Below, piece after piece: positions 8,660 to 32,599 of a stretch of DNA of 32,600 bases (its first letter is position 1; each line of letters begins with the position of its first letter). The notes below the pieces were generated by a model that did not search any database, was not told the DNA's origin, and saw nothing but the letters and a program-made list of their open reading frames with translations. The stretch comes from Halanaerobium salsuginis (lineage in GTDB: Bacteria; Bacillota; Halanaerobiia; Halanaerobiales; Halanaerobiaceae), in contig NZ_FOTI01000033.1 in the NCBI RefSeq assembly GCF_900114545.1, positions 1-32,600 of the forward strand, in the 5' to 3' direction. Position numbers and translations under genes: made by a program.

Positions 8660-8759
8660 GTGACAGCGGACGCGACAGAAAGACCGCAGCTAAAAAAGCT
8701 TTCGTTTCAGAGCAACGTCCCATCTCTGAACACTCTACGCCTTCTGCCTACTCTATCAC
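8660..8759 (-). ncRNA. Tetrahydrofolate (THF) riboswitch in the folT leader
   Basis: On the minus strand the conserved blocks of the folT-type THF aptamer appear in order. P1 is GUGAUAG (8753-8759) with CUGUCAC (8660-8666). P2 is GGCAGAAGG with CUUUCUGUC, nine pairs including G-U. P3 is UUCAGAG/CUCUGAA. The P4 arm is AGC/GCU. Conserved stretches include UGGGACGUUG, ACGAAAGC, GCGGU and GCGUCCGC. The pseudoknot pairs GGACG with CGUCC, a compensated version of the GGAUG/CAUCC pair I recall from the Streptococcus mutans example. The downstream gene is folT, the classical target. The call rests on pattern matching and hand folding. Confidence 0.9.
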
Positions 8760-24096: not shown

Positions 24097-24678
24097 TTAA
24101 TCTTTCAGCAAATCAAAGCTTGCAATAACTTTTTCGACTGGGTCAAGTGTTGGTCGCCAAATTTCTAATTGCTCTGCATTAGCAGTAAGAGGTCTGGACA
24201 TGCCTTCCATAAAGAGACAAATCTCAGTTAATTCATCCATTGGAATTGGATTTTTAGCAAAGATATTACTAATTATTGTAATATGAAACATCCATTCATC
24301 ATAATTTTCAATTGTAGAAATACCTGCTTCTGCCAGGGATGTGTGGACTGCTTCTGAAAATCTCTTTAAAGATGGTGTTTCATTTACTTCCAGAACAAGC
24401 TGATGCTGGTCAGAAAATCTTATACAGCTAAACCGATCAACTTCAATTTCAATTTGTTTAAATTCTTTCAATTTTTCAGTTAAAATAGTTTCAGCTTGAA
24501 CAGCTTTATTTTTATCGATTCGGTCAATAGTAATATGCAGCTGCGGATGTATTTGGTCAGGATAAAGATTATAATGCTCTGCAACAATTTTTTGTACCTG
24601 AGCAGCTGTTTCAATTAATTCCTGATCAGGAATTAATACAATAAAATACTCTTTATCTAATTCAGCAGCTTTTATCAT
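24097..24678 (-). CDS. 2H phosphoesterase (LigT/2'-5' RNA ligase superfamily)
   Basis: A 193-residue protein with both catalytic HxT motifs of the 2H phosphoesterase fold: LHITIDRI (H48, T50) and FHITIISN (H132, T134). The superfamily includes 2',3'-cyclic phosphodiesterases and the so-called 2'-5' RNA ligases; the actual substrate cannot be read from sequence. The ATG at 24678 follows AGAGGTAATT and is two bases from the stop of the upstream ATPase gene, so it is translationally coupled. Its place between a transporter ATPase and a HAD enzyme gives no clear function. Confidence 0.88.
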   Translation of the reverse strand: MIKAAELDKEYFIVLIPDQELIETAAQVQKIVAEHYNLYPDQIHPQLHITIDRIDKNKAVQAETILTEKLKEFKQIEIEVDRFSCIRFSDQHQLVLEVNETPSLKRFSEAVHTSLAEAGISTIENYDEWMFHITIISNIFAKNPIPMDELTEICLFMEGMSRPLTANAEQLEIWRPTLDPVEKVIASFDLLKD

Positions 24679-24680
24679 AA

Positions 24681-25955
24681 TTACCTCTCCATCTTTAATC
24701 TTTCAAATTTTTTTATTTCTTTTAACACTTGGCTTTGATCAGTGATTAATCTTAAATTGTCCCCATCTATTAATTTATTCCAGATAGACTCAGCTTTTCC
24801 TTTAACATAATCTCTTTTTTTAATATTCTGACCTGCTAAAAATATTTTATTTTTAGTAGGAAAATCTTGCAAGATTGTTAAATTAGCCAAATTCCCATAA
24901 CCAAAAGGGACTTCAGTTAAAATTATTAAATCTGACTGGTTAATTAGTTTTTTATGGGCTATAACTTCTTCAGCTTTAATTGCAGCAAAGGGATCAGCTG
25001 TCACTACCTCTATACCTAGTTCAACAGCAATCTGCCAATCTGCATCTCCACTGTTTAAAACTCCAGCACTTAAATTATAATTTAAACTAGACAGCTGCTG
25101 CAGCATATCAACTGCTGTCCCACCTCCAGCTATTACATGAATTTTAAAGTCTTTAGATTTTGCATTAACATTATCCACCAATTTATTCTGCGGCAATAAA
25201 GTTATAATGGGTTTTTGGGTAAGTTTATTTTTTTTCACCTGTACTTCAGCCTGATAGACTTGAGCAATATTTTTAGCAGTTAATACTTCAACAGCAGTAC
25301 CTTCTGCATAAATTTGACCAGAATTAATTAAAAATATTTTTTGACAATACTGAGCAGTTAAATTCAAATTATGAGAGACAGTAATAATAGTTAGGCCCAA
25401 TTTCAAATTCAAATACTCCAAAATATCATATATTTCAGCTTGATAATTTATATCAAGACTGGCAGTTGGTTCATCAAGAATAAGTATTTCTGGCTGCTGG
25501 GCCAGAGCACGAGCAATAATTACCCTTTGTTTTTCTCCTCCTGAAAGCTGATTAATTATTTTATCTTTTAATTTATAAGTATCAGTTAATTCCATTACCT
25601 GCTTGACAATCTTGCGATCAGATTGTTTAAGCTTTGACCAGCGTTTTTGATATGGTGTTCGCCCCATCATAATAATATCATAAACATTAAAACTAAAGTC
25701 AATATTCGTATTTTGTGGTACAACCGCCATTTTTTTAGCTAATTCTTGAGCTGAATATTTATTAAGCAGCTGATTAGATAAATAAACTACACCTTTTATT
25801 GGCTGTAATGTCCGGGCCAAATTTTTAATTAAAGTTGATTTTCCTGATGCATTAGGGCCAATTACTCCCACAAAATCACCTTTATCAACTGACATTGTAA
25901 TTTCTTTTATAACTTTATTTTGATTATAACTAAAAGTAATTTTGTCTACCTGCAT
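24681..25955 (-). CDS. BtuD/FhuC-type ABC ATPase with an extra C-terminal domain
   Basis: About 424 residues, against about 255 for a usual BtuD/FhuC ATPase. Residues 1-250 are a complete ATPase: Walker A GPNASGKST (33-41), Q-loop VPQNTNIDFSF, signature LSGGEKQRVIIARAL (about 137-151), Walker B ILILDEPTASLD, and H-loop VSH. From about 270 a separate domain follows: KIHVIAGGGTAVDML (271-285), GVLNSGDADW (298-307), a TADPF segment, ILTEVPFGYGNLANL (about 345-359) and an RD pair at 381-382. I recall similar tails in Firmicutes cobalamin/heme-type ATPases but know no function. It overlaps the permease stop. The second of two ATGs (25955) has the best spacing from GGTGAGG. Confidence 0.88.
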   Translation of the reverse strand: MQVDKITFSYNQNKVIKEITMSVDKGDFVGVIGPNASGKSTLIKNLARTLQPIKGVVYLSNQLLNKYSAQELAKKMAVVPQNTNIDFSFNVYDIIMMGRTPYQKRWSKLKQSDRKIVKQVMELTDTYKLKDKIINQLSGGEKQRVIIARALAQQPEILILDEPTASLDINYQAEIYDILEYLNLKLGLTIITVSHNLNLTAQYCQKIFLINSGQIYAEGTAVEVLTAKNIAQVYQAEVQVKKNKLTQKPIITLLPQNKLVDNVNAKSKDFKIHVIAGGGTAVDMLQQLSSLNYNLSAGVLNSGDADWQIAVELGIEVVTADPFAAIKAEEVIAHKKLINQSDLIILTEVPFGYGNLANLTILQDFPTKNKIFLAGQNIKKRDYVKGKAESIWNKLIDGDNLRLITDQSQVLKEIKKFERLKMER

Positions 25956-25963
25956 CATTTTCC

Positions 25964-26977
25964 TCACCAAATATTTTTTGATTTTTTTCGTAATAAATAA
26001 ATAAAATAAGGTCCCCCAGCTAGAGCAGTTATTATTCCAACTGGTAATTCAAGAGGAGCCATAAGTGTTCTAGCTATAGTATCAGCAAAGAGCAAAAAAG
26101 CAGCTCCCAGTAAAGCAGACAATGGTAATAGTTTTCGATGGTCAGGACCAATCATTAAACGGGCAATATGGGGTACAACCAGACCAATAAATCCAATACT
26201 ACCACTAACTGATACAACAGAGGCTGTTAGCAAAGAAGCTGCTGTTAAAAAAATGAGCTTACTCTTCTCAACTTCAAGTCCAAGGTGAGCAGCATTTTCT
26301 TCCCCTAATAAAATTAAATTTAGATCTTTCCCATAATAAAATATCAGCAAGCTAGCAAGCATAAAGTAAGGTAAAATCATTTTCACTTCAGACCAGGAAG
26401 AAGCAGCCAGACTCCCCATTAACCAGAAAACCAGTTGCTGTAAATTTTCTGTTCTTAAAACCATTAAAAATGACATAATTGAATTCAAAATAAAGCTTAA
26501 TGCAACTCCCGATAGTAAAAAAGTTAAAACAGGCAGTTTATTACCAACAAGTGCCAGCTGATAAACTATAAAAACTGTCAGCAGTGCACCAGCAAAAGCA
26601 AAAATAGGAAGTAGATTTAAATGAGAAAAAACCAGTGGAATTCCCAGAAAAAGAGCTAACATAACACCAGTTCCAGCACCAGCAGATATACCAACAATAT
26701 AGGGATCAACCATTGGGTTAGCAATTACTCCCTGAAAAACTGTCCCTGCTAAAGCTAAACCAGCTCCCACCATTATCGCCAATAAAATTCTGGGTAACCT
26801 AATTTCTGTTAAAATAATTAAATTTGCTTTCGGCAATTGTTTATTAAATAATAAATATTGTACAATTTTTAAAGGATTAATATAGCTCGAACCAATAAAT
26901 AAAGCTGTAAAAAATAATAGTAATAATATAATAATTATCATTAGATAAACAAAATAGATATTTTTATTTCTCTGCAT
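25964..26977 (-). CDS. FecCD/BtuC family ABC transporter permease
   Basis: A 337-residue membrane protein with about ten hydrophobic segments, matching the FecCD/BtuC family for vitamin B12, heme or siderophore uptake. Signatures include RLPRILLAIMVGAGLALAG (about 61-79), NPMVDPYIVGISAGAGTG (about 87-104), and the C-terminal GSIGFIGLVVPHIARLMIG and LPVGIITALAGGPYFIYLL. No binding-protein gene is present, so the ligand cannot be named and the binding protein must lie elsewhere. It overlaps the downstream ATPase gene by a few bases. The ATG at 26977 has an unusual leader: the ribosome binding site is far upstream with a hairpin between. Confidence 0.93.
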   Translation of the reverse strand: MQRNKNIYFVYLMIIIILLLLFFTALFIGSSYINPLKIVQYLLFNKQLPKANLIILTEIRLPRILLAIMVGAGLALAGTVFQGVIANPMVDPYIVGISAGAGTGVMLALFLGIPLVFSHLNLLPIFAFAGALLTVFIVYQLALVGNKLPVLTFLLSGVALSFILNSIMSFLMVLRTENLQQLVFWLMGSLAASSWSEVKMILPYFMLASLLIFYYGKDLNLILLGEENAAHLGLEVEKSKLIFLTAASLLTASVVSVSGSIGFIGLVVPHIARLMIGPDHRKLLPLSALLGAAFLLFADTIARTLMAPLELPVGIITALAGGPYFIYLLRKKSKNIW

Positions 26978-31377: not shown

Positions 31378-31452
31378 TGGAGCGGGAAACGAGATTTGAA
31401 CTCGCGACCCTCACGTTGGCAACGTGATGCTCTACCACTGAGCTATTCCCGC
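31378..31452 (-). tRNA. tRNA-Gly (anticodon GCC)
   Basis: 75-nt cloverleaf with encoded CCA. The anticodon is at 31418-31420, in loop TTGCCAA. Last gene of the cluster. Confidence 0.97.
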
Positions 31453-31463
31453 ATATTTAAAAA

Positions 31464-31548
31464 TGGTGGAGGGGAAAGGATTTGAACCTTTGTAGGCATC
31501 GCCGGCAGATTTACAGTCTGCTCCCTTTAACCACTCGGGCACCCCTCC
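31464..31548 (-). tRNA. tRNA-Tyr (anticodon GTA)
   Basis: 85-nt class II tRNA with a long variable arm and encoded CCA. The anticodon is at 31512-31514. Confidence 0.97.
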
Positions 31549-31591
31549 AGATTTAATTTTAATCTCCTAACCAGAAAATATAAATACTTTT

Positions 31592-31667
31592 TGGTGGAGA
31601 TAAGGGGATTCGAACCCCTGGCCTCTACACTGCCAGTGTAGCGCTCTCCCAGCTGAGCTATATCCCC
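31592..31667 (-). tRNA. tRNA-Ala (anticodon GGC)
   Basis: 76-nt cloverleaf with encoded CCA. The anticodon is at 31632-31634 (loop CTGGCAG). Confidence 0.97.
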
Positions 31668-31685
31668 ATGGCTGCTAGAAGTTAA

Positions 31686-31762
31686 TGGAGCCGATGACCG
31701 GATTTGAACCGGTGACCTCTTCCTTACCATGGAAGCGCTGCTACCAGCTGAGCTACATCGGC
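31686..31762 (-). tRNA. tRNA-Thr (anticodon GGT)
   Basis: 77-nt cloverleaf with a perfect acceptor stem GCCGATG/CATCGGC and encoded CCA. The anticodon loop is ATGGTAA. Confidence 0.97.
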
Positions 31763-31769
31763 AAAAAAA

Positions 31770-31846
31770 TGGCGGAGGAGACGGGATTTGAACCCGCGAT
31801 CTCCGGCTTGACAGGCCGGCGCGTTAAACCGCTACGCTACACCTCC
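31770..31846 (-). tRNA. tRNA-Asp (anticodon GTC)
   Basis: 77-nt cloverleaf with a G discriminator and encoded CCA. The anticodon loop is CTGTCAA. The acceptor stem GGAGGTG/CTCCTCC contains a U-U mismatch at 6-67. Confidence 0.96.
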
Positions 31847-31903
31847 GTATTAGATGTAGAAAGTAAATAACAGCTAAGCTGTATTACTTAAAAATATATT
31901 AAA

Positions 31904-31979
31904 TGGTGGGCGAAACAGGGCTCGAACCTGTGACCCCCTGCTTGTAAGGCAGGTGCTCTCCCAACTGAGCTATTCGCCC
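31904..31979 (-). tRNA. tRNA-Val (anticodon TAC)
   Basis: 76-nt cloverleaf with acceptor GGGCGAA/TTCGCCC and encoded CCA. The anticodon is at 31944-31946. Confidence 0.97.
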
Positions 31980-31986
31980 CTAATAA

Positions 31987-32062
31987 TGGCACCCTCAAGG
32001 GGATTCGAACCCCTGCCGCCAGGATGAAAACCTGGTGTCCTAGACCCCTAGACGATGAGGGC
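31987..32062 (-). tRNA. tRNA-Glu (anticodon TTC)
   Basis: 76-nt cloverleaf with encoded CCA and anticodon loop TTTTCAT. The first acceptor pair is G1-U72. Confidence 0.97.
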
Positions 32063-32072
32063 GCAAATAAAA

Positions 32073-32165
32073 TGGCGGAGAGAGAGGGATTCGAACCCTC
32101 GCCAGGGTAAATACCCTGCTACAGGTTTAGCAAACCCGCCCCTTCAGCCACTTGGGTACCTCTCC
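32073..32165 (-). tRNA. tRNA-Ser (anticodon GCT)
   Basis: 93-nt class II tRNA with a long variable arm and encoded CCA. The anticodon is at 32129-32131. Confidence 0.97.
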
Positions 32166-32218
32166 ATGCTCGAAGTTTAAATAACTATATAATTATAGTT
32201 TAAACTAAAGTAAATTAA

Positions 32219-32295
32219 TGGTGGGTCTAAGAGGACTTGAACCTCTGACACTGTGGGTATGAACCACATGCTCTAGCCAACTGAGCTATAGACCC
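32219..32295 (-). tRNA. tRNA-Met, elongator (anticodon CAT)
   Basis: 77-nt cloverleaf with a fully paired acceptor GGGTCTA/TAGACCC. The loop TTCATAC is that of elongator Met rather than the lysidine-modified Ile tRNA. The anticodon is at 32259-32261. Confidence 0.93.
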
Positions 32296-32302
32296 ATGTA
32301 TA

Positions 32303-32379
<77 letters not shown>

Positions 32380-32440
32380 TTACCCAACCATGTTATTTTG
32401 CCAGATCTAGATATATATATTATAAACAAATATATTCAAA

Positions 32441-32517
32441 TGGTTGCGGGGACCGGATTCGAACCGATGACCTCCAGGTTATGAGCCTGACGAGCTACCG
32501 GACTGCTCTACCCCGCG
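32441..32517 (-). tRNA. Initiator tRNA-fMet (anticodon CAT)
   Basis: 77-nt cloverleaf with the initiator hallmark of an unpaired 1-72 position (C1, A72), loop CTCATAA and encoded CCA. The anticodon stem TCAGG/CCTGG has A29-U41 instead of the usual first of three G-C pairs. Confidence 0.96.
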
Positions 32518-32523
32518 TTAAAA

Positions 32524-32599
32524 TGGTGAGCCATGGAGGATTCGAACCTCCGACAACCTGATTAAAAGTCAGGTGCTCTACCACCTGAGCTAATGGCCC
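32524..32599 (-). tRNA. tRNA-Lys (anticodon TTT)
   Basis: 76-nt complete cloverleaf ending one base before the window edge. Loop CTTTTAA and encoded CCA. First visible gene of the cluster; its promoter lies outside the window. Confidence 0.96.

Follow-up and report, generated by a model that had tools for sequence, protein, structure and literature searches.

CbiZ, an enzyme, occurs in archaea as a fusion to BtuD, and the NCBIfam model NF007082 (PRK09536) describes a corrinoid ABC transporter ATPase that we take to be of haloarchaeal origin. To our knowledge, the passage of imported B12 from its importer to the salvage or remodelling enzymes is poorly described. Regulatory C-terminal domains are found on the ATPases MetN and ModC, and their ligands and dimer contacts are known from structures, according to PMC10710835. 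The ligands of SLOG proteins are nucleotides and further small molecules (PMC6459960), and the molybdenum-cofactor carriers are described as holding a nucleotide-like cofactor in a Rossmann-like fold of this kind (PMC7470044).

Here we describe the C-terminal domain (hereafter the tail) of an importer ATPase encoded in the window, that is, the whole 32,600-nucleotide stretch of Halanaerobium salsuginis DNA that was analysed. The tail is confirmed as a real, folded and conserved domain. We tentatively propose that it is a cytosolic Rossmann-like domain whose ligand is either the corrinoid entering the cell or a nucleotide signalling its arrival, and that it hands the corrinoid on. This is the best reading of the predicted fold, the conservation and the B12 gene context in relatives, all of them computed.

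Architecture of the ATPase and its partner permease

The ATPase open reading frame lies on the minus strand at positions 24681–25970 and encodes 429 amino acids. Residues 1–258 (25197–25970, minus strand) form an ABC ATPase domain of the BtuD/FepC type, which PF00005 matches over residues 22–170 (E = 4.9e-31). The P-loop (GPNxxGK), Q86, the signature SGGE, the DE of Walker B and the switch histidine H200 are invariant among 35 full-length sequences. The permease gene, of the BtuC/FecCD type (25964–26977, minus strand; PF01032, E = 8.4e-99), overlaps the start of the ATPase gene by 7 bases, which is the pairing expected of a BtuD/FepC-type importer ATPase. Its closest NCBIfam model is that of the vitamin B12 permease BtuC (E = 2.1e-97, under the cut-off of that model).

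The ATPase domain is followed by a linker (residues 259–275; 25146–25196, minus strand), which has low confidence in the full-length model, and by the tail (residues 276–429; 24684–25145, minus strand), which is delimited by AlphaFold2 and conservation. The initial annotation had described about 150 residues beyond a BtuD/FhuC-type ATPase, at positions 24681–25151. The 429-residue frame agrees with this, and the span is only a few codons off, since the part that folds comprises residues 276–429.

Predicted fold of the tail

Modelled alone with AlphaFold2 (residues 270–429, with 58 homologues), the tail has a mean pLDDT of 94.7 and a pTM of 0.90, with six strands alternating with helices in a Rossmann-like fold. 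The full-length monomer model, built with 35 sequences, has a pLDDT of 92.0 and a pTM of 0.62. In it the ATPase domain and the tail are each confident and their mutual placement is not. The mean pLDDT falls to 50 over the block 261–270 and to below 50 at residues 262–264, and in the homologue alignment the linker varies in both sequence and length. Because both domains are confident and their relative placement is not, the linker is probably a flexible tether, a reading that draws on a single stretch of low confidence and on the pTM of a monomer model, which may differ in a dimer. The separate Rossmann-like unit proposed initially is thus borne out by the model scores, the alternation of strands and helices, and the fold matches described below.

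Foldseek gave as its best PDB match an NAD(P)-binding ketol-acid reductoisomerase (E = 7.2e-4), with the DNA-processing protein DprA at E = 1.6e-3, and it also matched the RCK domains of MthK and KtrA, which belong to potassium channel systems. With a second structural aligner a TIR domain came top (Z = 11.4), the molybdenum-cofactor carriers 6y01 (Z = 11.2; 137 aligned positions, 3.9 Å) and 2iz7 (Z = 10.2) were also matched, and many Rossmann folds, dehydrogenases among them, stood at Z = 9–11, which is a near tie. With Rossmann-like matches so nearly tied, no ligand can be read from the fold, and the absence of a clear winner should not be taken as a sign that the fold is new. Proteins with SLOG domains and nucleoside deoxyribosyltransferases were among the first matches listed from a viral structure library. 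The initial annotation had named two outcomes that would count against it: a match to a known domain of defined role, of which structure prediction and fold search found none, and a tail that is disordered and not conserved, which does not describe a domain with a confident fold and 16 invariant columns among 59 sequences.

A conserved putative ligand site

In an alignment of 59 sequences, the most distant of which is 26% identical to the window's tail, the 16 invariant columns are H278, G282–G284, G303, L305, N306, G308, D309, D311, W312, F328, P355, N360, D387 and G391; G357, G359 and N363 are conserved at 90% or more. The motifs that these residues mark all lie on the minus strand: the GGG loop after strand 1 (residues 282–284; 25119–25127), invariant throughout; the GVLNxGDxDW block from the end of strand 2 onward (residues 303–312; 25035–25064), with its G, L, N, G, D, D and W invariant; DPF, with the consensus PPF, after strand 3 (residues 326–328; 24987–24995), with F invariant; the PFGxGNLxN loop after strand 4 (residues 355–363; 24882–24908), with P355 and N360 invariant; and RDYxxG (residues 386–391; 24798–24815), with D387 and G391 invariant. 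Each motif named at the outset was recovered, namely VIAGGG (279–284), GVLNSGDADW (303–312), TEVPFGYGN (352–360) and RD (386–387), and the claim of strong polar motifs holds across the 59 sequences.

According to the predicted secondary structure, GGG, N306–W312, F328 and P355–N360 lie at, or within a few residues past, the ends of strands 1–4, and this strand-end side is the usual ligand side of a Rossmann-like fold. D387 and G391 lie 9 and 13 residues past strand 5, beyond a short helix, and H278, G303 and L305 lie inside strands.

A second tail subfamily, shorter and divergent, was matched at E = 1.9e-9 to 3.5e-19 in the profile search of 398 genomes and by eye is likewise carried on ABC ATPases. 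Among the 13 sequences examined, which are not all independent, D309, D311, F328 and the last glycine of GGG are each kept in all 13, G357 and N360 in 12, N363 in 11 and P355 in 10. N306 is replaced by His in 10 of the 13 and W312 by Tyr in 10. D387 is kept in none, and the RDYxxG segment is not retained.

Comparison with nucleotide-binding signatures

The classical NAD(P)-binding Rossmann fold has GxGxxG after strand 1 and an acidic residue at the end of strand 2. The tail has GGGTAV in the window and GGGxG in relatives, and its strand 2 ends at Asn306. The LOG branch of the SLOG superfamily carries PGGxGTxxE after strand 4, the glutamate of which has a catalytic role; in PFGxGNLxN the first glycine is replaced by Phe, the threonine by Asn and the glutamate by Asn.

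Profile alignment with hhalign gave a weak 19% for the tail against SLOG cluster 4 (LDcluster4, nine sequences from relatives), with N..lI..AD..FGxGNLxN of the tail set against RN..v..AD..GGxGTLSE. Against DprA (13 sequences) it gave 34%, but in a register that misses the loop alignment, and a SerA control gave 0.6%, with only nine very similar sequences. From sequence and model, SLOG-like cofactor binding would be the best lead for the tail, as a direction to follow and not as membership of that superfamily.

Distribution of the tail

Of 61 genomes (that of H. salsuginis and those of relatives), 43 have the tail. A search with the tail alignment located it at 58 loci of public genomes, and a profile search across 398 genomes of the phylum, again including its own, recovered it in 130. 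With the single window tail as query the genome scan returned no relative; the alignment query succeeded. Pfam gave no match to the tail at E ≤ 1, a PDB sequence search with the single tail gave none, and a plasmid tblastn gave none. The tail profile had one weak match in the PDB at E ≤ 10, a ketol-acid reductoisomerase (E = 0.011), over the half from GGG to GDSDW. Among the best matches listed in the open-access literature (titles and abstract beginnings), no description of the tail was found.

No stand-alone tail was established among the opened matches of the 398-genome search. Contig ends truncate the short tail frames at loci L029, L073, L075 and L121, whereas that of L122 (197 amino acids) lies about 1 kb from a contig end and that of L118 is broken across frames, so that a stand-alone copy may yet exist.

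Gene context in relatives

By its gene context in relatives, the tail ATPase is probably the BtuD of a vitamin B12 or corrinoid importer. A BtuC-type permease lies directly upstream in 49 of the 52 loci with more than 1.1 kb upstream (exceptions L047, L062 and L079; L046, L073 and L075 lack upstream room). L086 is absent from the neighbour tables because the filter on reading frames kept no tail frame there, and gene labels for neighbours denote similarity to genes of the H. salsuginis genome unless confirmed by Pfam. A BtuF-type binding protein precedes the permease in 31 of the 50 loci with more than 2.3 kb upstream; outside Halanaerobiales this is 31 of 34 (exceptions L062, L079 and L081), and among the 16 Halanaerobiales loci, L077 counted among them, no binding protein lies beside the pair.

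The scan for RNA families covered 26 of the 58 loci, 21 outside Halanaerobiales and 5 within. Of the 21, 15 have a cobalamin riboswitch upstream (it was not found in L050, L057, L060, L062, L072 and L079); of the 5, none has. A further 16 stretches were shorter (3 to 5.5 kb), and 13 of these carry the divergent subfamily; such a riboswitch lies upstream in a single one, L112. CobU and CobS, both confirmed by Pfam, adjoin the tail ATPase in L050; in 12 of 57 loci one of the two genes that follow is CbiP/CobQ-like; a CobO-like gene comes next in L077; and CobC-like genes are also among the neighbours. The relatives thus supply both B12-linked regulation (the riboswitch) and Pfam-confirmed B12 neighbours (CobU, CobS and CbiZ), and the suggested link of the tail to corrinoid handling is well matched by this context of BtuC, riboswitch and salvage genes.

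The locus in its own genome

The window itself has no cobalamin riboswitch, and its contig has no PF01497 binding protein; an importer's own riboswitch and an adjoining BtuF are contextual and not essential to B12 importers. The genome encodes four FecCD permeases, namely the window's, two on contig C69 and one on C56, and three PF01497 binding proteins, two of which accompany the permeases of C56 and C69. The remaining one is on C84, a contig with no FecCD gene, and no permease was seen in 10 kb of reading frames around it. Wherever a binding-protein neighbour of the relatives was labelled, this protein scored highest among the three. Since it has no permease of its own and scores best against those neighbours, the C84 protein probably serves the window's permease, as judged from sequence.

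The tail profile matches once in this genome. The two other FecCD-linked ATPases have 280 and 255 amino acids, too short for a tail; of their systems, one adjoins genes that by eye resemble NikR and Lar genes, and the other has two permeases. A heme or siderophore importer, the other kind of substrate considered for the window's system, is not favoured, given the B12 context in relatives and the shortness of these other FecCD ATPases.

Three cobalamin riboswitches lie elsewhere in the genome. By position, that of L098 is ahead of a cob cluster with CobO and that of L096 ahead of an anaerobic ribonucleotide reductase. The third, in L095 on contig C40, precedes the gene of a TonB-dependent receptor, which is accompanied by genes that by eye are ExbB/ExbD-like; this receptor is a candidate outer-membrane B12 receptor.

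Two bases past the ATPase stop begins a gene for a LigT-like 2H phosphoesterase (24097–24678, minus strand; PF13563, E = 7.5e-7). Such a gene directly follows the ATPase in 15 of 19 Halanaerobiales loci, and two HxT/S motifs are present in all 15. Elsewhere in the window are a tetrahydrofolate riboswitch (8662–8757, minus strand; 76 bits) and, at the contig end, a dense array of 12 tRNA genes (31381–32599, minus strand).

CbiZ accompanies the tail

The initial annotation had compared the tail to CbiZ fusions while noting that its sequence is not CbiZ-like. The latter holds: the tail has no Pfam match, CbiZ (PF01955) included, at E ≤ 1, and no CbiZ was found in the H. salsuginis genome. CbiZ is likewise absent from all 8 genomes sampled of the window's order, Halanaerobiales. 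Among the 398 genomes, CbiZ is matched in 49 (48 over the cut-off), the tail in 130 and both in 25, which is more than expected (odds ratio 2.4; Fisher P = 0.005, uncorrected for kinship). In 19 of these 25 genomes a CbiZ gene is found on the same strand no more than 12 kb away, and in 12 it is directly downstream of the tail ATPase, at most 300 bases on; one of these 12, G275, has a CbiZ match that is short and below the cut-off. This co-occurrence and adjacency indicate that the tail shares a pathway with CbiZ and is not a stand-in for it, and we reject the idea of the tail as a CbiZ replacement. The CbiZ analogy therefore survives as an association, through the adjoining gene in 12 of 25 genomes, and fails as a substitution.

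The CbiZ proteins beside the tail ATPases of L157, L158, L160, L162 and L165 have 129–164 extra C-terminal residues without a Pfam match; the extensions of these five scanned proteins share a segment resembling LYVHLxDQ. They look different from the tail by eye, and the tail profile labels none of them. At the divergent-subfamily locus L162 (1–3294), a CobN/magnesium chelatase gene (PF02514) directly follows CbiZ, and long genes that by eye resemble it are near CbiZ in L163 and L168.

Discussion

On its probably flexible linker, the tail would bind the arriving corrinoid, perhaps through the nucleotide part; alternatively, it would bind a nucleotide that reports on the corrinoid. Four motifs, GGG, GDxDW, PPF and PFGxGNLxN, would make up the putative site, perhaps together with RDYxxG. 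The tail may retain the cofactor at the permease exit and pass it to the salvage enzymes encoded nearby in relatives (CbiZ, CobU, CobO and CbiP). We infer that the site binds a corrinoid or a nucleotide; that its purpose is capture and hand-off we suggest less firmly than the ligand. A narrower version has an outside chance: as a SLOG-like cobamide domain, the tail would read the nucleotide loop of the corrinoid as a nucleotide, keep the corrinoid at the permease exit and so couple import directly to remodelling of the lower ligand, and in the window's order, where the 8 genomes sampled lack CbiZ, the neighbouring 2H phosphoesterase would open the loop.

Other roles can be drawn from the same site. 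Possible, though unlikely, is a sensor for trans-inhibition, in which the two tails of a BtuCD dimer would bind built-up corrinoid, part the ATPases and shut uptake. The tail sits C-terminal of the ATPase, as do the regulatory C2 domain of MetN and that of ModC (PMC10710835); its conserved site has no recognised catalytic set; and RCK domains, those of MthK and KtrA, are among its structural matches. The linker, however, is of low confidence in the monomer model and variable among homologues, unlike a rigid mount. Distinctly less likely is an enzyme that would process the incoming corrinoid, for example by cleaving or modifying the nucleotide loop or by reduction before adenosylation. Such an enzyme would account for the invariant polar residues N306, D309, D311, N360 and D387 in a Rossmann-like domain and would be at home among the salvage and remodelling enzymes of relatives; the archaeal BtuD fusions do carry an enzyme, and frames of 486–497 amino acids with a CbiZ match fit a BtuD–CbiZ-type fusion by length alone. 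Yet the catalytic glutamate of the LOG motif is Asn in the aligned register of the tail, the divergent subfamily keeps D309, D311 and N360 but not N306 or D387, and CbiZ accompanies the tail and is not replaced by it.

The slimmest chance falls to an energy or redox sensor, with the tail tuning import to the state of the cell, and not to corrinoid, by binding a general nucleotide such as NAD(P) or ATP. Ketol-acid reductoisomerases, which bind NAD(P), do head the Foldseek matches and supply the one PDB profile match. Against this, the strict GxGxxG is absent and strand 2 ends in Asn rather than an acidic residue, and in the loci read the tail is on B12-type ATPases, once only in its own genome. 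Corrinoid or nucleotide binding, leading to hand-off, thus stays our tentative preference. As a conserved, unnamed domain on an importer ATPase, present in 130 of the 398 genomes sampled from the phylum, the tail is a candidate for corrinoid hand-off or for feedback on uptake, and it offers clear residues to mutate. Naming it would aid annotation, in that ATPases with the tail could be called corrinoid-type and not generic iron-siderophore ATPases.

Among known systems, the SLOG superfamily (LOG, DprA, the molybdenum-cofactor carriers and YpsA) has a Rossmann-like fold, as is predicted for the tail; unlike SLOG domains, the tail has no Pfam match and has the extra GDxDW and RDYxxG motifs. MetN and ModC have a regulatory domain fused after the importer ATPase, as the window's protein has its tail, which is known here from monomer models. 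The nearest fusion is that of NF007082, which likewise joins an ABC ATPase to a homologous tail. It is the best NCBIfam model for the whole ATPase (E = 3.6e-91; 306.2 bits, below the cut-off of 537 bits) and also matches the tail alone (E = 8.5e-10, model positions 271–353), with the differences that only the first 83 tail residues align and that the window's ATPase is not called a member. As NF007082 holds a homologous tail, the ATPase–tail fusion itself is, judging from these alignments, not new; the domain is unnamed and has no Pfam family. CbiZ, to which the tail itself has no match, is in relatives a corrinoid-linked protein of the same operon. In genome G234 (locus L165) the order is binding protein, CbiZ, BtuC, tail ATPase, CbiZ and then a gene resembling a second binding protein. 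This arrangement resembles operon-2 of Dehalobacter restrictus, the proteins of which rose on average 46-fold under corrinoid starvation, according to PMC4285132.
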